The translations under genes were made by a program, and so were the position numbers. From IMG/VR virus record IMGVR_UViG_3300030382_002006, positions 1 through 22,745 of that record: a DNA stretch of 22,745 nucleotides; one strand, given 5' to 3'. Under the pieces are notes generated by a model. That model saw only the letters and a program-made list of their open reading frames with translations, made no database searches and was not told the origin of the DNA. This document shows positions 5,965-19,861 of the stretch, one piece after another; the stretch's first letter is position 1, and every line of letters begins with the position of its first letter. Source of the stretch: a virus.

Positions 5965-7083
5965 ATGGATAAGGAAAAGCCTCACTACTACGGAATACTA
6001 CCCGCCGAAGTAAGATACAACGAACATCTAACACCTCATGGAAAGATATTGTATTCAGAACTCACAGCCCTGTGTAATAAGGAGGGATATTGCTGGGCTA
6101 GTAATTCATACTTTGCTGACCTCTATAACACCAGACCTGAAACCGTATCAGTATGGATACGAGACCTAGTTAAAGAGGGGTTTATTAAAACACAATTAAC
6201 CAAAGTACAGACAGGCACAAGGAGGAAGATTTGGATTTTGGCACTTACGAAAAACCGTAAGTCCGCACTTACGAAAAATAACGAGCATAATACTACAAGC
6301 TCTTTTAATAAAGATACTAAAGTATCTTGTAGGGATAATTCATTATCCCCCTCCATAAGAAAATCATTTGGTTATAGATGCATAAAGATATGGAATGACC
6401 TCCCTTATACCAGAACACACACATCCGAAAGCATCATAGAGGAAGTTGAATCTTATATGAAACAATTAATCAATGGAACTTTCTTTAAAGGAAAAGAAAT
6501 CAACAAAGGGTACTTTAAGAGGAATAAAATATCTACTAAGGAACATAAATATAAATATACCAGAGCAGAACTCATGCAAGGTATAAGGAATGTGGCTTTA
6601 TATTCAAAGGAGGGATATACAAAGATTAGAACTAAAGACCTCCCTACCTTGATTTATAATCCAAGAACAGGCACAAGCGTTTTCCTATCTGTTATTAAAG
6701 AACCACCAATATCATTGATGGAAGGGAGGGACATACCAGACCAGACACCACACCTGACCAGAATATTCACAGCTAAAATGGATTACCCGAAAGATAAAAT
6801 ACCCTCCAATGATAAGGTAAGGTTGATAGAGGGAATAAAAACATTAGTAGCCTATCAAGATACAATCAACATCAGGACGGACAGAATGGAAAGACTGTTT
6901 GATACTCCAGACCTGTTATGCCAAACATATATTAAGTGGATGGAGGGACAGGATTGGATAGTGAACATAACGCTGGGGATGATTAAGTCAGACGGAAAAA
7001 TGTTTTACAGGTTTGTGAAGGAGATGGAGGAAGATTGTAATGGACTTAAGTTAGTTACGAAGGGACAGGCGAATGAGTGCTAA
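5965..7083 (+). CDS. Helix-turn-helix replication initiator-like protein
   Basis: The first ~90 of 372 residues form a winged helix-turn-helix of the type seen in phage and plasmid replication initiators: YYGILPAEVRYNEHLTPHGK, LYSELTALCNKEGYCWASNS, then YFADLYNTRPETVSVWIRDL and VKEGFI. A Lys/Asn/Ser-rich linker follows (residues ~93-130, with ALTKN twice) and then a larger C-terminal region of unknown fold. By position, between primase and the DnaB-type helicase, it probably binds the origin and recruits helicase, like lambda O or DnaD/DnaB-type loaders. I chose ATG 5965 because AGGAGGG lies six bases upstream; an earlier in-frame GTG at 5887 is inside the hairpin leader. The DNA of the linker carries a repeat cluster annotated separately. 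Its end overlaps the helicase gene by 11 bases. Confidence 0.72.
   Translation: MDKEKPHYYGILPAEVRYNEHLTPHGKILYSELTALCNKEGYCWASNSYFADLYNTRPETVSVWIRDLVKEGFIKTQLTKVQTGTRRKIWILALTKNRKSALTKNNEHNTTSSFNKDTKVSCRDNSLSPSIRKSFGYRCIKIWNDLPYTRTHTSESIIEEVESYMKQLINGTFFKGKEINKGYFKRNKISTKEHKYKYTRAELMQGIRNVALYSKEGYTKIRTKDLPTLIYNPRTGTSVFLSVIKEPPISLMEGRDIPDQTPHLTRIFTAKMDYPKDKIPSNDKVRLIEGIKTLVAYQDTINIRTDRMERLFDTPDLLCQTYIKWMEGQDWIVNITLGMIKSDGKMFYRFVKEMEEDCNGLKLVTKGQANEC
6241..6349 (+). other. Candidate replication origin: iterons and palindromes inside the initiator gene
   Basis: A 14-base direct repeat GCACTTACGAAAAA occurs at 6241-6254 and 6265-6278. Within this region CTTACG (6244), CGTAAG (6256) and CTTACG (6268) lie at exact 12-base spacing. 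Downstream are two perfect 8-bp inverted repeats with 2-base centres: AAGATACT-AA-AGTATCTT at 6311-6328 and GGGATAAT-TC-ATTATCCC at 6332-6349. CTACAAG 6293-6299 / CTTGTAG 6326-6332 encloses the first of these. All fall in the low-complexity linker region just after the DNA-binding domain, the same arrangement as the lambda origin in gene O. The origin role is inference. Confidence 0.55.
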
Positions 7084-8578
7084 GATAGAGAAGAACATAA
7101 TAACAGGTATGATTCTAAGCGGAAGGTTTCTTGAAGAGATTAAACCAATCTACCGTCCCCTCACTGTACCCTTTGCGAGAACGGTAGCAGATTGGTGCAT
7201 AGAATACTATGAAGAATACAAGAAGCCTCCCTTACACCACATACAGGACATATTCATAGCCAACAGGGACAAGATGTCCGAAGAAGAGGAAGACCTTACA
7301 GCAAGTTTCCTCTCCCACATATCCGATGAAATAGAAGAAAGCCCCACATTTAATGTGGAATACACACTGAATGCATCGGAAAAGTATTTCAGGACGATAG
7401 CCCTTAAGGAAGTCAGCAAGAAACTATCCACCTCCATCACTAAGGGAAATATAGATAAGGCGGAGAACATAGTCAAGGAGTTTGAAAGGGTAGCAAGACC
7501 ACAGACCAAAGGCATAAACCCATTCGATGAAGACGTAATACGGAAAGCCTTTGCTGATGATAGTGGGGATGCATTGTTTCAATTTCCTGGGGTGCTAGGA
7601 GGGATTGTCGGACATTTTGAAAGAGAGCATCTGGTATCGTTTGTAGGTGTATCCAGTATAGGAAAGTCATGGTGGCTTATGTGGATGGCATTGCTGGGAC
7701 TGTCGGAGGGATTCAGGGTTGTGTATGCAAGTCTGGAGATGTCAGAAAAACAGATGGTGAAACGTATACATCAATACCTTAATGCATGCCCGACAAAAGA
7801 ACTTGACGAACTACTACTCCCACTGTTCGACTGTGTAAAGAATCAAAGGAATACCTGCGAAAGGAAGGAGAGAGAATGTGATGTAGGCGTGTTTGATGAT
7901 AATGATGAGTTGCTTAAACCATCAACAGCTAGAAGGAGGGGATATAAAACATGTACAAATTGCAAGCAAGAGTATAAACAAGCAATATGGCACAAGAAGG
8001 TTAAGAGGGAAGTCCTGTCTGAAGAAATGGTATTGGCAAAGAATAGAATACTGTATGGAGGGTTATTAAGAAAGAACAGGTTTAGATTTATTAAGTATCC
8101 CTCCAAAGGAGCTACGGTGGCAGACCTGAAGACACATCTCCTTAATATGGAAAACTATGAGGGGTTTGTGCCTGATATTATAGTTACTGACATGGCAGAC
8201 AAGTTCTCCGCAGACAATACCAGACAGGACACAAGACACCAGATAGACGAGGTGTGGATGGCACATAAAGCAATGGCACAGGAAAGGAGGTGTTTGGTAG
8301 TGACGGCAAGCCAATCTAATACCATGAGGACACAGAAGGACATCAAGCAAGGAGATTGGGCTGAGTCTGTAGGTAAAATAAATGAGTCTGATATTTGCTT
8401 TGCCCTCAATCAGCAACCAGAAGAAAAACCAAAGGGGCTTATGCGTATTGGTGTACTGAAACAAAGAGACGATGACTTCGACCTGAACGCTGAGGTGAAC
8501 GTATTAATGTCCTATAAGATAGGTAGACCATACCTAGATTCTAAACTGAAAGAAAGGAGGGAGAAAAAAGAAAAATAA
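7073..8578 (+). CDS. Replicative DNA helicase, DnaB-type
   Basis: This 501-residue protein resembles DnaB. An N-terminal helical domain (~1-160) is followed by a RecA-type ATPase: Walker A FVGVSSIGKSWW near residue 195, VVYASLEMSEKQ (motif with catalytic Glu), Walker B PDIIVTDMADK, VTASQSN, and a C-terminal strand region. It should form a hexamer that unwinds the fork 5'-3' with the upstream primase. An unusual insertion in the ATPase core at about residues 253-297 holds DCVKNQRNTCERKEREC and later CTNC, suggesting a zinc-binding subdomain seen in some phage helicases. The start (ATG 7073) overlaps the initiator stop by 11 bases. The stop TAA abuts repeat copy B, whose identity to copy C includes the last two codons. 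Confidence 0.85.
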   Translation: MSAKIEKNIITGMILSGRFLEEIKPIYRPLTVPFARTVADWCIEYYEEYKKPPLHHIQDIFIANRDKMSEEEEDLTASFLSHISDEIEESPTFNVEYTLNASEKYFRTIALKEVSKKLSTSITKGNIDKAENIVKEFERVARPQTKGINPFDEDVIRKAFADDSGDALFQFPGVLGGIVGHFEREHLVSFVGVSSIGKSWWLMWMALLGLSEGFRVVYASLEMSEKQMVKRIHQYLNACPTKELDELLLPLFDCVKNQRNTCERKERECDVGVFDDNDELLKPSTARRRGYKTCTNCKQEYKQAIWHKKVKREVLSEEMVLAKNRILYGGLLRKNRFRFIKYPSKGATVADLKTHLLNMENYEGFVPDIIVTDMADKFSADNTRQDTRHQIDEVWMAHKAMAQERRCLVVTASQSNTMRTQKDIKQGDWAESVGKINESDICFALNQQPEEKPKGLMRIGVLKQRDDDFDLNAEVNVLMSYKIGRPYLDSKLKERREKKEK

Positions 8579-9005: not shown

Positions 9006-9557
9006 ATGACAAAGGATGAATCAGCATTGAAACCAAAAGACGTTGAGTATGCTGTGGACGAAATGAACAAGGTCTTATTGGAGGGATGTGAAGATACGAT
9101 AGGCAAGGATGACTTCAAGACCATGATAGAGGAACTGAAGGAAGCAGGGGAAGAGATTGACAAGGATGATGTGTTCACAGCAAGGACAGCAAAGGTATTA
9201 AACGTATTGGGATTTACTAAATTTAATGTCAAGAAAGAGAAAGGAGAAAGAATGACAAAGAAGAAAGGTAAAAATGGTAGGGTCAAGGAGACGAACTCCA
9301 AGAAGGAAGAAAAGAAACCAGCTAAGAAGAAAGTCAAGAGAGAGAAAGGCAAGACCAGAGTACAGGCTATGCATGAAGTCCTGAAGAAGTGTAAGAAGGG
9401 CAAGGCATACGATGACATCGTAGACGAAGTAGACGAAGTGCTAGGAGGGTCTTGTACCAAACCAAGTATCGCAGGGTCATTGAGGTTTACCCTGTCAGTC
9501 CTGATGGAGTTCAACATCGTAGAACACAAGAACCAGAAGTATTATTACATAGGATGA
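9006..9557 (+). CDS. Lysine-rich two-domain protein of unknown function
   Basis: In this 183-residue protein, residues 1-~78 form an acidic helical domain (MNKVLLEGCEDTIGKDDFKT ... VFTARTAKVLNVLGF). Residues ~79-120 are a Lys-rich linker, and the last ~60 residues (TRVQAMHEVLKKCKKGKAYD, then DIVDEVDEVLGGSCTKPSIA) look like a winged-helix domain ending in a beta hairpin (VEHKNQKYYYIG). This suggests a nucleic-acid-binding protein. It begins behind leader box copy 4 and overlaps the Mom-like gene by ATGA, so it heads the DNA-modification operon and may help or regulate it. No family was recognised. Confidence 0.6.
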   Translation: MTKDESALKPKDVEYAVDEMNKVLLEGCEDTIGKDDFKTMIEELKEAGEEIDKDDVFTARTAKVLNVLGFTKFNVKKEKGERMTKKKGKNGRVKETNSKKEEKKPAKKKVKREKGKTRVQAMHEVLKKCKKGKAYDDIVDEVDEVLGGSCTKPSIAGSLRFTLSVLMEFNIVEHKNQKYYYIG

Positions 9558-10276
9558 AAAGCCTAATCTACAAAGAGGGTTTGCTGGTCAGGGAGCCGAT
9601 TGGAATAACCAACGGTTCTCTGACCCTTACTAAGTGTACCTTAGACCATGCGAGGAAAGGAGTAGTCAAACACCACTACTCCAGAAAGGTATCACGAAAC
9701 AGTTTTCTATCCTTTGCTGTCAACAAGACAGAGGGATTTATTCAGTTAGGCTATGGCATGAATCCAACCAAAAAGAGTACCATATCAAAATTGATTACGT
9801 TAGACAACCACTGTGAGTTCGACAGGATGTGGCTATCAGATGCCCTCCCTAAGTTCAGTGAAAGTCAGGTAATCTCCCTTCTACTAAGTTATATCAAACA
9901 AGTACATCCAAACATTCAATTCATAATAACGTATGCTGATGAGGCAATGGGCAACACTGGTATCATCTATCAGGCTACCAATGCTCTTTCTCTGGGAAAA
10001 CATAAAACACATTTTTATATTCTCCCAAATGGAGAGCGTACCCATGCTGTATCTCTATGGCATAAGTACAAGACCAGTAGCAAGGAGTTCTTAAAAGAAA
10101 AAGGTATCAAGGCGGAGGTGACATGGCAACATAGATACCTGTATATTTTAAACAAAGGAATGCGGAAGAAGTATCAAGAGGAGATACGTCATCTACCAGA
10201 TGAAAGGGAGGGTTCGATTCCCTCCTTCCGCTCCAAAAATTCTGGTGGCAGACGACCCAGAAGGAGGACAAAATGA
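9554..10276 (+). CDS. Mom-like DNA modification protein (GNAT-type)
   Basis: This 240-residue protein resembles phage Mu Mom and its relatives, which acetamidate (carbamoylmethylate) adenine N6 and protect phage DNA from restriction. Matching features are ARKGVVKHHYSRKVS near the N-terminus, the segment SKLITLDNHCEFDRMWLSDA, the diagnostic stretch YADEAMGNTGIIYQATNAL near residue 126, and QHRYLYIL near the end. The start ATG 9554 overlaps the previous stop. Mom relatives I recall end soon after the HRY-x-Y motif; here the tail (residues ~203-240, Arg/Ser/Gly-rich) is instead encoded by a tRNA-like sequence and a short inverted repeat. The stop overlaps the glycosyltransferase start. Modification chemistry and target are inferred from the family only. 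Confidence 0.75.
   Translation: MKSLIYKEGLLVREPIGITNGSLTLTKCTLDHARKGVVKHHYSRKVSRNSFLSFAVNKTEGFIQLGYGMNPTKKSTISKLITLDNHCEFDRMWLSDALPKFSESQVISLLLSYIKQVHPNIQFIITYADEAMGNTGIIYQATNALSLGKHKTHFYILPNGERTHAVSLWHKYKTSSKEFLKEKGIKAEVTWQHRYLYILNKGMRKKYQEEIRHLPDEREGSIPSFRSKNSGGRRPRRRTK
10162..10235 (+). tRNA. tRNA-Gly-like gene (anticodon ACC), overlapping the Mom-like gene
   Basis: A 74-base cloverleaf can be drawn. The acceptor stem GCGGAAG (10162-10168) pairs perfectly with CTTCCGC (10225-10231), followed by discriminator T and encoded CCA. The D stem is GTAT/ATAC (10171-10174, 10184-10187). The anticodon stem TCAT/ATGA has only four pairs and loop CTACCAG, giving anticodon ACC. The T arm GAGGG-TTCGATT-CCCTC (10208-10224) is perfect. 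G1-C72, C2-G71, G3-C70, U73 and C35-C36 are glycine identity elements. Weak points are A instead of U at position 8, no A14, and a short variable region, so it may be degenerate or a tRNA mimic. It is read in frame as the end of the Mom-like protein. Confidence 0.6.
10240..10262 (+). repeat. Short inverted repeat next to the glycosyltransferase RBS
   Basis: TTCTGG (10240-10245) and CCAGAA (10257-10262) can form a 6-bp hairpin with an 11-base loop. It starts four bases after the tRNA CCA end and its 3' arm shares AA with the Shine-Dalgarno AAGGAGG. It could mark tRNA 3' processing or modulate translation, but it is short and may be chance. Confidence 0.35.
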
Positions 10277-11262
10277 ATATATTAGCATTCTCTCCAAGCA
10301 CTAGGAAAGTATGGATAGACAGGAGGGCTATCAACCCAGCCTATCAGCTTATGGCATACCTAGTAGCTAGGCTGTCATGGGAATATAACATATATACAAT
10401 AGATAAGTCCTTCTCCCCTGTGTACAGCATGAAGAGATACACAGGGCAAAAGATAGATGCTGTTATCTCCATAGGAGCTATTTATAACCTGTCGGACACT
10501 ACGAAGAAACTCTCCTTTGACCCGAACTACAGCAGACATAAAAGAATATTTGAAATAGCAGAGATAACTAAGGAAGTGTTTGACAAGTACAACCCTCCAC
10601 ATATAAACATGTGTGTGGATGTTAACAAATGGTCACAGGAACTAACGGAGATGTTTGGCAAGGAGCCTGATGCATACATTACAGAACAGGAGATGGGATG
10701 GCAGACTTACCTCTATCACTATTGCCATGCTATTTATAAGAATCAAAAACAATTCCACCGCAAGGAGGACAGATTCTTTTATGCTGGTGGAGCAAAGAAC
10801 AGGACAGAGGATTTTCTAAGGCTTACCAAAGACATAGACATGACAAAGCTTATAGCTGGTGGAGGATGGAACGACATCTTATCAAAGGAAGATAACTACT
10901 GGTTACTGGGCTATATAAAGTTTCCTGAATGCCTCCAAATATGTATTGATTCAAAGTATAGTGTAGTGTTCCAGACGAAGGAGGGTAATGAACAAAACTG
11001 GATAACAGGTAAGTTGTTTATGAACATAGGCACAGAGGTAATAGGATTCATTGACAAAGACTATGACAGGGAGGGTATATATGTCCCTAAAGACTCTATT
11101 CTGCGTGTCAGTAATGGAGAAGAAATCAATGACAAAGTGTATACCCTCCCTTATTCTAAACTAATAAAGGAACAGCAGAAGATTGTTAAACCTAAATGGT
11201 CATATGTGGAGGGAACATATGTCCGACCTTTTATACGGAAAGTGAGGAAACTTTTAAAATGA
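10273..11262 (+). CDS. Putative GT-B glycosyltransferase resembling T4 beta-glucosyltransferase
   Basis: This 329-residue protein has a two-lobed layout like T4 beta-glucosyltransferase. The N-terminal lobe begins MNILAFSPSTRKVWID. The second lobe begins RFFYAGGAKNRTEDFLRLTK (~165), comparable to the T4 GGSFRSGQRES region, and later has QNWITGKLFMNIGTEVIGFI then DKDYD (~240), comparable to the T4 NFITLRVWETM...LIDEEFD region. The sugar-nucleotide-contacting Arg and Glu of that T4 segment appear as Lys and Met, so the donor may differ. The similarity is from memory and unverified. It sits between the Mom-like and sulfotransferase genes, with ATGA overlaps on both sides. This suggests it glycosylates a modified base or, alternatively, a surface polysaccharide. 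No membrane segment is present. Confidence 0.55.
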   Translation: MNILAFSPSTRKVWIDRRAINPAYQLMAYLVARLSWEYNIYTIDKSFSPVYSMKRYTGQKIDAVISIGAIYNLSDTTKKLSFDPNYSRHKRIFEIAEITKEVFDKYNPPHINMCVDVNKWSQELTEMFGKEPDAYITEQEMGWQTYLYHYCHAIYKNQKQFHRKEDRFFYAGGAKNRTEDFLRLTKDIDMTKLIAGGGWNDILSKEDNYWLLGYIKFPECLQICIDSKYSVVFQTKEGNEQNWITGKLFMNIGTEVIGFIDKDYDREGIYVPKDSILRVSNGEEINDKVYTLPYSKLIKEQQKIVKPKWSYVEGTYVRPFIRKVRKLLK

Positions 11263-12038
11263 AACCAGACTTTATTATTGCAGGGGCAGCGAGGGCTGGC
11301 ACTACATCCCTTGCGGATTGCCTAACACAACACACTAGGATATACATGCCTACTCCATTCATACCAGAGCCGAAGGTCTTTACAGACCCGACCCTACCTG
11401 ACGAAGACTACCTCCAAGCCTATGATGAATTATTCAAACCATTCTGTATCGGAGGACATAGACCTAATAAACAAACCAAATTTTTCCTCCTTTACGGTGA
11501 AAAGACAGTTAACTACCTAGAGGTGGAGGGGGTGGCAGAGACCATTGGGAGGGTATTACCTGATATTAAAATAATCTTTTGCCTACGAAACCCTGTAGAT
11601 AGGGCATATTCCAACTGGTGTTGGAGTTGGATGAATGGATACGAAACAAAACAATTTGCAGAAGCTATAAGTCTGGAGTTATGTAGTGATAGATGGAGGA
11701 AAATTCCTCATGGGTTAAGAACATCACCTTTTAATTATGTACACAGGGGGAGATATTTTGATTTATTAGTTCCATTTTCTAGGGCGTTCAAGAGGGGTTC
11801 TGTAATAATATATATCTTTGAAGAAATCATAAAGAACGTACAAGGCACAGTAGATAATTTCTGTGACCATTTTAACATAGAATATACTCCTATTACCGTA
11901 AGAATGAAGAATGAAAGGGCGGAGGGATTCCCTCCAATGGATGAGGGAATAAAAGCCTTATTAAAAGCATACTACAGCCATACAGTAGAAGACCTGAAAC
12001 AATGCTACGGATTAAACCTTGATGTCTGGGAGATATAA
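11259..12038 (+). CDS. PAPS-dependent sulfotransferase
   Basis: This 259-residue protein has both PAPS-binding motifs of the cytosolic/heparan-type sulfotransferase fold: the 5'-phosphosulfate loop IIAGAARAGTTSLAD at residues 6-20, and the 3'-phosphate site CLRNPVDRAYSNWCW from about residue 108. NYVHRGRYFDLLVPFSRAF and the following strand VIIYIFEEI are also typical. It should transfer sulfate from PAPS to a hydroxyl, commonly on a carbohydrate. No signal peptide or membrane helix is seen, so it acts in the cytoplasm. The start ATG 11259 overlaps the glycosyltransferase stop by four bases. Placement directly after a glycosyltransferase suggests that it sulfates the sugar that enzyme adds. 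Whether that sugar is on DNA or on a surface glycan cannot be told. Confidence 0.8.
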   Translation: MKPDFIIAGAARAGTTSLADCLTQHTRIYMPTPFIPEPKVFTDPTLPDEDYLQAYDELFKPFCIGGHRPNKQTKFFLLYGEKTVNYLEVEGVAETIGRVLPDIKIIFCLRNPVDRAYSNWCWSWMNGYETKQFAEAISLELCSDRWRKIPHGLRTSPFNYVHRGRYFDLLVPFSRAFKRGSVIIYIFEEIIKNVQGTVDNFCDHFNIEYTPITVRMKNERAEGFPPMDEGIKALLKAYYSHTVEDLKQCYGLNLDVWEI

Positions 12039-12958
12039 TGACCTTATCCTTAAAAAAGAGAACAACAAAACGACTTTTTAATGAAGTCCCTTTGACTAAA
12101 AACCAGATTAGGGAAAAATATACTATGTCTCCATTCAGTGTGCTAGATGCAAGAAAGGGTGTATGGCAAAAGAGGAAGAAACTGTGGATATCTTTAGGAA
12201 TTGAATCTGAGCTAGGGAGGGAAAACGTAAAGTTATGGGCAAAAGACAGTGGAACTAAGGAAGTTTCACAAAAGATAAGGATGGTTGGTGAGGTTTCGAT
12301 ATTTGACCCTGTACTGTGTGAATTAATGTATAGCTGGTTTTGCCCAAAGGGAGGAAGCATCTTAGACCCTTTTGCTGGGGGAAGTGTCAGAGGGATAGTA
12401 GCAGGCTATTTAAATTATCAATATACAGGCATTGATTTAAGTAAGTCACAAATAAAAGCCAACAGGGTGCAAGGGAAGGAGATACTAGAAACAGACAGTA
12501 AAGTTAAATGGATAACAGGGGATAGTGCCAACATGAAAAAACTAACAGGAAAAAAACACGATTTTATTTTCAGTTGTCCTCCATACTATAACCTAGAGAT
12601 ATATCAAAACAGCCCAAAAGATTTAAGCAATGCAAAAACCTATAAAGAATTTTTAAACCATTATTATAAAATAATAAAAGAGGGGGTCTCCCTTTTGAAA
12701 AACAATAGGTTTGCTTGTTTCGTAGTTTCTAATATAAGAGACAAAAAAGGATTTTACCATAACTTAGTAGGGGATACTATAAGAGGGTTTGATAAGGAGG
12801 GGGCTTTGTTCTATAATGATTGTGTCTTAGTCACACATATAGGGAGTTTGTCTCTCAGAATAGAAGGTCAATTTTCAAAAAACAGGAAGATAGGAAAAAC
12901 ACATCAAAACGTATTGATATTTTATAAGGGAGATATAACACAAATTCCTAGTTTTTAA
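12038..12958 (+). CDS. DNA methyltransferase (amino-methyltransferase, N6-adenine or N4-cytosine type)
   Basis: This 306-residue protein has the SAM-binding motif I ILDPFAGGSVRG near residue 108, a following acidic strand end YTGIDLSKSQ, and catalytic motif IV FSCPPYYNLEIY with S179-C-P-P-Y. That order (motif I before IV) and the S/D-PP-Y core are typical of DNA N6-adenine/N4-cytosine methyltransferases. The N-terminal ~90 basic residues could recognise DNA. The start ATG 12038 shares a base with the sulfotransferase stop. No restriction endonuclease is encoded nearby, so it is an orphan enzyme that probably protects phage DNA. The target sequence is unknown; the absence of GATC and CCGG here makes those unlikely to be its main sites within this window. 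Confidence 0.82.
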   Translation: MTLSLKKRTTKRLFNEVPLTKNQIREKYTMSPFSVLDARKGVWQKRKKLWISLGIESELGRENVKLWAKDSGTKEVSQKIRMVGEVSIFDPVLCELMYSWFCPKGGSILDPFAGGSVRGIVAGYLNYQYTGIDLSKSQIKANRVQGKEILETDSKVKWITGDSANMKKLTGKKHDFIFSCPPYYNLEIYQNSPKDLSNAKTYKEFLNHYYKIIKEGVSLLKNNRFACFVVSNIRDKKGFYHNLVGDTIRGFDKEGALFYNDCVLVTHIGSLSLRIEGQFSKNRKIGKTHQNVLIFYKGDITQIPSF

Positions 12959-18556: not shown

Positions 18557-18684
18557 CAGAGTTGTGTTGGTTTACAATTAGATGTTGTGTAATAGTTGTA
18601 ATTGTAATGTTGATATATCCTACATTGTGTAGGGTAGCATTTCAAATTTATTTTAAAGAGAGGAGAAACAGTCCGCATGGGTAA
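18553..18684 (+). CDS. Small single-span membrane protein, GTG start
   Basis: This 43-codon frame begins with GTG 18553, overlapping the preceding TGA (GTGA), behind a strong AAGGAGGG. It reads MTELCWFTIRCCVIVVIVML and then IYPTLCRVAFQIYFKERRNS, with a ~17-residue hydrophobic stretch (CVIVVIVMLIYPTLC), several cysteines and a basic tail. It ends eight bases inside the next gene (TAA 18682-18684) and contains that gene's GAGAGGAG site. It fills an otherwise empty 120-base gap exactly, with the overlap style used elsewhere here, so I consider it real. Small membrane proteins of this kind in phages can act in lysis timing or superinfection exclusion; no function is assigned. Confidence 0.5.
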   Translation: MTELCWFTIRCCVIVVIVMLIYPTLCRVAFQIYFKERRNSPHG

Positions 18685-19861
18685 GAAGAAAAAAGATGAT
18701 GGTTTTGCTGAGAGACAAAGAAGGAGAAGTCAGCAAGGAGAAGAAAGAGGTGGAGGGAAGAAAAGTGTCCTTGACATAAAAGTCCTGAAAGAACAGCAGG
18801 GTGGAGAGGACGACATCACATGGTATAAGCCGAAGAAAACCAAAGGCAAGGAGAGGAATAAAATAGATATACTTCCCTGGCTCATTGAGGAAGAATGGTA
18901 CGCAAAGCTTAAGGAGTACAAGGGTATCCCTTCAGAAGTAGAAGTAGGGGAGAAAGAATATTCTTTGATAGTGCCTGTCCACTATGATGTAGGTAAGGAT
19001 GGGGATACTGTCCTATGTTTATCTGAAGCCTTTGGAGGACATTGTGTTATCTGTGATGAAATGTTTGACAAGATGAAGGAGGACAAAGTAAGACATAAGG
19101 AATACATTAGTAAGTTAAGGGCTAAGTGGAGATGTTTTTATAATGTATTCGACCATGAAGATGAGGAATTTGAAGGTATCAAAGTTTGGGATATGTCTTT
19201 CCATAACTTCGAGAAGTATCTCCGACAGGAGAGTAGGGACAGTGATGAGGGTAATGTTGCCTTTGCTGACCTAGACGATGGATTCATTGTTTCCTTTAAG
19301 GGTAGGGAGGAAAGCATTGGTGAAGGTAGAAAATTTATAAAGGCGGAGTCCATTGAATTTGAAGACAGGGAGGAACCGTATGACGAAGACGTTATGGAGA
19401 GTACCTATGCGCTTGATTCAGCCTTGATAGTTCCTGAAGCTGAAAAGGTCAAGGAGGCTTTCTACCAGACAGGTGATGATGACGAAGAAGAGGAAGAGGA
19501 AGAAGAAAAACCAAAAGGTAGAAAAAAGAAGAAAGGAAAAAAGGATGAACTTCCTGAGTATGAAGAAGAAGAGGAAGAAGAGGAAGACGATGATGATGGG
19601 GAAGGAGAAGAGGATGAAGGAGAGGAAGAAGATGATGACGAAGGAGAGGAAGACGATGATAACCCATGTCCAGCAGGATTAGAATACGGTGTTGATACAA
19701 ACAAGCAAGATGACTGTGAGGACTGTGACGAAGATATATTTGAGGGTTGTTGTGAAAAACAGGACGAACTTAAGAAGTCCAAGAAGAAATCGTCTAAGAA
19801 GGAGAAGTCCTCCAAGAAGGAGAAGCCAAAGAAGAAAAAGAAATCATTTAAGAGGAAATAA
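18677..19861 (+). CDS. Single-stranded DNA-binding protein, T4 gp32-like
   Basis: In this 394-residue protein, a basic N-terminus (MGKKKKDDGFAERQRRR) is followed by an OB-type core: KIDILPWLI, then IVPVHYDVGKDGDTVLCLSE and FGGHCVICDEMFD, where a His, a Cys and the HCxxC pair resemble the gp32 zinc site, and KWRCFYNVFDHEDEEFEGIK. From about residue 266 come two long Asp/Glu runs, a Lys cluster between them, a cysteine-rich segment (NPCPAGLEYGVDTNKQDDC, then EDC and EGCC), and a Lys/Ser tail of ~35 residues. gp32-type SSBs end in the acidic tail that contacts partner proteins; here a zinc-like knuckle and basic tail follow it, which is unusual. It should coat ssDNA for replication and recombination. 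Confidence 0.75.
   Translation: MGKKKKDDGFAERQRRRSQQGEERGGGKKSVLDIKVLKEQQGGEDDITWYKPKKTKGKERNKIDILPWLIEEEWYAKLKEYKGIPSEVEVGEKEYSLIVPVHYDVGKDGDTVLCLSEAFGGHCVICDEMFDKMKEDKVRHKEYISKLRAKWRCFYNVFDHEDEEFEGIKVWDMSFHNFEKYLRQESRDSDEGNVAFADLDDGFIVSFKGREESIGEGRKFIKAESIEFEDREEPYDEDVMESTYALDSALIVPEAEKVKEAFYQTGDDDEEEEEEEEKPKGRKKKKGKKDELPEYEEEEEEEEDDDDGEGEEDEGEEEDDDEGEEDDDNPCPAGLEYGVDTNKQDDCEDCDEDIFEGCCEKQDELKKSKKKSSKKEKSSKKEKPKKKKKSFKRK

Follow-up and report, generated by a model that had tools for sequence, protein, structure and literature searches.

A tRNA-Gly built into phage mom genes, a candidate glycine donor for DNA modification

Introduction

What is the task of a gene block in which mom, the gene of a DNA adenine modification enzyme, is joined to genes for a glycosyltransferase-like (GT-like) protein, a sulfotransferase and a DNA amino-methyltransferase? 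The question is raised by a viral DNA of 22,745 nucleotides (nt), IMG/VR record IMGVR_UViG_3300030382_002006, the whole of which is hereafter called the window. Its four consecutive open reading frames (ORFs), at 9554-10276, 10273-11262, 11259-12038 and 12038-12958 on the + strand, overlap successively by 4, 4 and 1 bases, just as the original prediction for this locus had described; that prediction went on to raise the possibility of a joint pathway placing a sulfated sugar on phage DNA. It overlooked that the 3′ end of mom contains a tRNA-Gly, which alters the likeliest role of the Mom part. We conclude that the core of the block is very probably a unit for Mom-type DNA modification equipped with a donor RNA of its own, a tRNA-Gly charged by the host and used as the source of glycine.

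A tRNA-Gly inside the mom reading frame

With default settings, ARAGORN finds a single tRNA in the window, a tRNA-Gly at 10162-10235 (+ strand) that lies in the 3′ end of the mom ORF (9554-10276, + strand), which encodes a Mom-family, GNAT-fold DNA adenine modification enzyme of 240 amino acids. The anticodon, ACC, occupies 10195-10197 (+ strand) and keeps C35 and C36; U73 falls at 10232, and a CCA end is encoded at 10233-10235. RF00005 scores this tRNA at 34.2 bits against a gathering score of 29, a match that needs relaxed filters and was missed by a gathering-threshold run with fast filters. Our covariance model R1, built from 15 gap-free mom-linked tRNAs (alignment A9) to which the window tRNA does not belong, gives it 68.8 bits (E=1.6e-15), and its minimum-energy fold is a cloverleaf (z -3.2).

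An independent lineage (loci L003-L005) carries a tRNA-Gly(UCC) at the equivalent position of mom. From the window to L003, both sides of the anticodon stem are changed (TCAT/ATGA to CCAG/CTGG), as are both sides of the T stem (GAGGG/CCCTC to GCAGG/CCTGC), and the amino acids encoded there go from DERE to AGGA. The two sides of the stems change together while the encoded amino acids change, so that RNA pairing has been kept at the protein's cost. In the structure predicted for Mom, order extends to about residue 212; the disordered remainder is encoded by the tRNA's 3′ half.

An attachment-site remnant is a reading that we put aside, since the structure is complete, shows covariation and recurs in phages that are not related.

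Linkage of tRNA-Gly to mom across phages

Scans with three Mom subfamilies yielded about 240 mom loci; subfamily alignments were used because a combined Mom alignment held no stretch conserved enough for a scan of the collection. Over all of these loci, ARAGORN finds 17 distinct tRNAs no more than 300 nt from a Mom domain, 16 of them Gly and one undecided between Val and Gly, and 10 tRNAs farther away, not one of which is Gly. This linkage test is free of training bias, whereas counts made with R1 and with a second model, R2, lean towards the class they were trained on. A custom tRNA scanner with a free anticodon gave no match in 0.95 Mb of shuffled sequence.

R1 has 57 matches. One of them, in L013, is a tRNA-Trp that lies 931 nt upstream of mom; all others have an NCC anticodon. 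Among the 15 training sequences, 96.7% of cells are paired and two-sided changes occur in 17 of the 22 pairs; none of 500 shuffles was as good, and slid controls reached 41-48%. Over 56 distinct sequences, pairing stands at 97.0% of cells, with two-sided changes in 20 of the 22 pairs. The 5′ end of the tRNA lies between -54 and +46 nt relative to the end of the Mom domain in most loci, and in most the tRNA overlaps the coding end of mom. R2 adds 22 further loci with more degenerate copies in the same place, including the Firmicutes prophage L282.

The trait is widespread among Mom proteins. Of 64 diverse Mom representatives, 34 carry the tRNA by R1 and 44 after R2, and in one well-supported clade of 36 representatives it is present in 35. 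With the trait scored by R1, the Mom tree needs 16 changes, at least 7 of them forced by well-supported branches, a count that the R2 additions would lower. The association also appears in reverse: a DNA pattern describing the unusual D arm together with the anticodon, made without reference to Mom, matched 8 viral contigs, and mom lies at the tRNA in 7 of them, four of these new; the eighth match falls inside an unrelated coding gene and forms no cloverleaf. Among 398 Firmicutes genomes, six prophage Moms lie above the cut-off; ARAGORN finds no tRNA on their short flanks, and R2 finds one tRNA (L282).

Most of these phage records contain no tRNA other than the linked one, including those of a 51.3 kb Arthrobacter phage and a 38.7 kb Microbacterium phage. 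A separate array of tRNAs is present in one record, of 142 kb. The mom-linked tRNA is not annotated in the records of Arthrobacter phages Timinator and BarretLemon, and in Microbacterium phage MenE an annotated tRNA-Gly adjoins the gene called acetyltransferase.

Some loci are arranged differently. In L034 (2698-4257), as in L033 and L266, a single ORF encodes two tandem Mom domains with a tRNA-Gly in the linker between them, and in L033 and L034 this ORF is preceded by another complete mom, giving three Mom domains in a row. At L167 (633-706) and L178 (3806-3879), a canonical-looking tRNA-Gly(UCC) that keeps U8 lies 194-271 nt upstream of a Mu-like mom and is possibly a fresh acquisition of a host tRNA. 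The gut-phage mom genes of L048, L050-L052 and L054, some with an in-frame TAG, have a tRNA with anticodon CTA 1-2 kb upstream; recoding of the TAG stop codon is probable in those phages.

Glycine identity kept and translation features lost

The identity set of bacterial glycyl-tRNA synthetase (GlyRS) consists of G1-C72, C2-G71, G3-C70, U73, C35 and C36, and the window tRNA has it complete. Among the 56 linked tRNAs, the first three acceptor pairs are GCG/CGC or GCC/GGC in 52 and U73 is present in 54; CCA is encoded in 29. A8 stands in place of U8 in 50 of the 56, U33 is kept in 33 of 51, and the T-loops are varied. The window tRNA itself carries A8 and, in its D arm, a 5-bp stem closed by a small loop, together with a normal U33 and T-loop. 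Neither this tRNA nor the set conforms to a canonical elongator, in which U8 pairs with A14, U33 is present, the D arm carries GG and the T-loop reads TTCRA. With R1, ordinary tRNA-Gly from 149 bacterial genomes reach at most 60.5 bits; among mom-linked copies that were not used for training, the well-formed ones score 68.8-78.6 bits and degenerate ones lower.

At the mom 3′ end of L191, L225 and L257, tRNA-like copies of 69 nt have no D arm and retain an NCC anticodon, U73 and an encoded CCA. tRNAs without a D arm occur in mitochondria, and the phage copies resemble them in keeping the acceptor, anticodon and T arms. Unlike the mitochondrial tRNAs, they are phage-borne, lie at the end of a DNA-modification gene and would not be expected to have a role in translation. 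Judged from their sequences, the linked tRNAs keep the GlyRS identity elements but lose features needed for translation.

Mom and its putative glycine donor

The window Mom matches Pfam family PF25680 over residues 23-215 of 240 (E=1.4e-44; 152.6 bits, cut-off 27.1), and in the alignment every family-invariant residue is present (H41, G61, E88, R91, D129, G136 and Y139). Its AlphaFold2 (AF2) model has a predicted local distance difference test score (pLDDT) of 88 and finds its best structural match in the crystal structure of Mu Mom, 8bv8 (VIA Z 21.3, root-mean-square deviation 3.3 over 199 residues), which assigns it a GNAT-type fold. Foldseek and VIA returned only acetyl-CoA-type GNATs and no aminoacyl-tRNA transferase among the matches listed after 8bv8, a result compatible with kinship to such transferases. 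The Mu and window proteins share family and fold; the loci differ. Mu has no tRNA at mom, whereas the window has a tRNA-Gly built into the end of the gene; Mu has the regulator com before mom, whereas the window mom overlaps by 4 bases an unrelated preceding gene and has GT-like, sulfotransferase and methyltransferase neighbours.

In the mechanism that we propose, the tRNA-Gly held at the 3′ end of the mom transcript would be processed out of it, charged by the host GlyRS and used to present glycine to Mom. Mom, as a GNAT-fold transferase, would pass the glycyl group to N6 of adenine in phage DNA; a rearrangement would then yield N6-carbamoylmethyl-adenine, the Mu-type modification, which would block host restriction enzymes. 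N6-carbamoylmethyl-adenine, the Mu product, is a glycinamide built on adenine N6, and GNAT-like folds include tRNA-dependent transferases; we infer that glycyl-tRNA would be an ester donor suited to N6 transfer followed by rearrangement. Since the tRNA retains the elements recognised by the synthetase but no longer those on which the ribosome and elongation factor depend, it would not be expected to compete with protein synthesis.

A partial analogy exists in staphylococci, whose FemX, FemA and FemB are acyltransferases of the GNAT-like superfamily that take glycine from partly translation-incompetent tRNA-Gly for a non-ribosomal purpose. The proposed Mom reaction would likewise draw glycine from a charged, non-translational tRNA-Gly by means of a GNAT-like transferase. 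The Fem systems differ in that they act on a peptidoglycan precursor, reside on bacterial chromosomes, have their tRNA genes outside the enzyme gene and show no D-arm loss.

The glycine donor of Mom has been unsettled for decades. As late as 2021 the donor was proposed to be an acylated CoA, for example glycyl-CoA (PMC7824862). The title of a 2023 preprint (Silva et al., 10.1101/2023.03.24.534169) links Mu Mom with charged tRNA. The idea of a charged-tRNA donor is hence not new; a dedicated, gene-embedded and degenerating tRNA may be, and its presence within the mom genes of dozens of unrelated phages provides independent evolutionary evidence for such a donor. We lean towards the wider view that many phage lineages possess private tRNA-Gly of a class not described before, either fused with mom or adjacent to it, that has evolved away from translation as far as loss of the D arm and would serve as glycine donor for DNA modification only, enzyme and RNA evolving as one unit. 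Isolated phages, including Arthrobacter phage BarretLemon and Microbacterium phage MenE, offer natural test systems, and tRNAs freed from translation and reduced stepwise form a natural series for the minimal needs of GlyRS and of a tRNA-dependent transferase.

Several observations weigh against a donor role. Several copies have no encoded CCA and would need the host CCA enzyme. In MenE (L183) the tRNA lies on the strand opposite mom, and in L265 and L268 it lies ahead of mom. Because R1 and R2 both had mom-linked tRNAs as their training set, the counts of conserved features that they give lean towards that set. No linked tRNA accompanies mom in Mu, in the gut phages and in several further groups, which would mean that the tRNA is not required when host glycyl-tRNA suffices.

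The same RNA might instead be a tRNA mimic within the mom mRNA, acting in cis: Mom or GlyRS would bind it and control translation or stability of the message, and it would never become a free donor. Translation of Mu mom is under mRNA-level control by Com (PMC6483171). The overlap with the coding end of mom in most loci also fits, and degenerate forms that have lost the D arm or changed the T-loop could still bind. We nevertheless consider a cis-acting mimic quite unlikely: the MenE tRNA is a gene of its own on the opposite strand, U73 and the encoded CCA, at the frequencies given above, are features of a charged RNA, and Mu Mom is said, in the title of the 2023 preprint, to be linked with charged tRNA. 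That this is an ordinary translation-boosting phage tRNA-Gly, lying beside mom by accident, is scarcely credible: phages often carry tRNAs, and L167 and L178 have canonical-looking ones upstream of mom, but those linked to mom are all Gly and accompany Moms that have diverged widely. Most of them no longer have U8, a third lack U33, some have given up the T-loop or D arm, and most records contain no other tRNA.

The neighbouring genes of the block

A host-charged tRNA-Gly as glycine source would account for the Mom part of the block and leaves three genes to be placed. The block is not a chance arrangement, because mom, GT-like and sulfotransferase genes recur in the window's order in the independent lineage L003-L005; between the window and L003, protein identity is about 84% for Mom, 66% for the GT-like protein and 53% for the sulfotransferase. 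Among the mom loci collected here, GT-like and sulfotransferase genes are restricted to the window's own lineage, and a search of 50,697 phage records detected neither of them at its level of sensitivity. As to the enzymes, Pfam family models uphold the calls of Mom, sulfotransferase and methyltransferase; the glycosyltransferase call rests on weak matches.

The GT-like protein (10273-11262, + strand, 329 amino acids) matches no Pfam family over any cut-off and no PDB entry. Its C-terminal half weakly resembles PHROG 7922 'beta-glucosyltransferase' (E 0.0085 for the window protein, 4.5e-4 for its L003 homologue) and PF13524 (E 0.08-0.18). AF2 reached a pLDDT of 35 from an alignment of two sequences only, and a search of viral contigs and phage records for further homologues found none. 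By these similarities the protein is probably a GT-B glycosyltransferase, a weak assignment. It may share the GT-B fold type of the T4 alpha- and beta-glucosyltransferases that act on hydroxymethylcytosine DNA, as the weak PHROG 7922 match suggests; there is no significant Pfam match to the T4 families and no hydroxymethylase was found. A T4-type glucosyltransferase, as raised in the original prediction, is no more than a candidate identity.

The third gene (11259-12038, + strand) encodes a PAPS-dependent (3′-phosphoadenosine 5′-phosphosulfate) sulfotransferase of 259 amino acids, with matches to PF13469 (E=2.1e-12) and PF00685 (E=7.9e-11) and conserved cofactor motifs GxxRxGTT (GAARAGTT in the window) and RNPVDRAYS. 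Profile searches match it to 3rnl, a bacterial sulfotransferase of unassigned function (E 2e-21), and to heparan-sulfate 3-O-sulfotransferase 1 (E 4e-9).

The fourth gene (12038-12958, + strand, 306 amino acids) encodes a DNA amino-methyltransferase of the N6_N4_Mtase family (PF01555, E=4.1e-11) with the motifs DPFAGGS and SCPPYY. It matches PHROG 12517 (E 7.5e-99) and the DNA methyltransferases of PHROG 498 (E 3.5e-75) and has phage homologues of up to about 50% identity, some annotated as DNA adenine methyltransferases. In L003, its position is taken by a second, divergent mom (6522-7244; PF25680, E 1e-45), a replacement which suggests that DNA-protection genes are interchangeable here; the methyltransferase would be one of them.

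The GT-like and sulfotransferase genes are a lineage-specific addition, probably responsible for a glycan and its sulfation. They could decorate the host surface with a sulfated glycan, the blocking of superinfection being one conceivable purpose, and have no tie to mom beyond the common transcript. The nearest solved relatives of the sulfotransferase after 3rnl are glycosaminoglycan sulfotransferases, in keeping with the surface-glycan alternative; the two genes are, moreover, unlinked to mom elsewhere, and no base-hydroxyl pathway is seen. No membrane or wall enzyme is seen alongside them, and a task in common with mom could be the reason why they are conserved together in two lineages. We regard surface modification as a serious contender and stop just short of giving it preference.

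The proposal that the four genes act together to put a sulfated sugar on phage DNA could hold beside the tRNA-donor reading. It can point to the order of Mom, GT-like and sulfotransferase genes conserved in two lineages, to the beta-glucosyltransferase match and to the likeness of the sulfotransferase to carbohydrate sulfotransferases. A base hydroxyl for the sugar would be made by a thymidylate-synthase-type hydroxymethylase, and none was found in the window or in related contigs of 40 kb and 57 kb, which are possibly fragments. A search for an adenosine 5′-phosphosulfate (APS) kinase was negative, and so was one for Tet/JBP enzymes, whose positive controls went undetected too. With the GT-like and sulfotransferase genes restricted to the window's lineage among the collected mom loci, no hydroxymethylase in the contigs covered, and a weak glycosyltransferase call, a joint pathway for a sulfated DNA sugar is not supported, and we consider it unlikely.

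Elsewhere in the window, 18677-19861 encodes a replication-region protein of 394 amino acids that combines a long acidic stretch of low complexity with an end rich in lysine.

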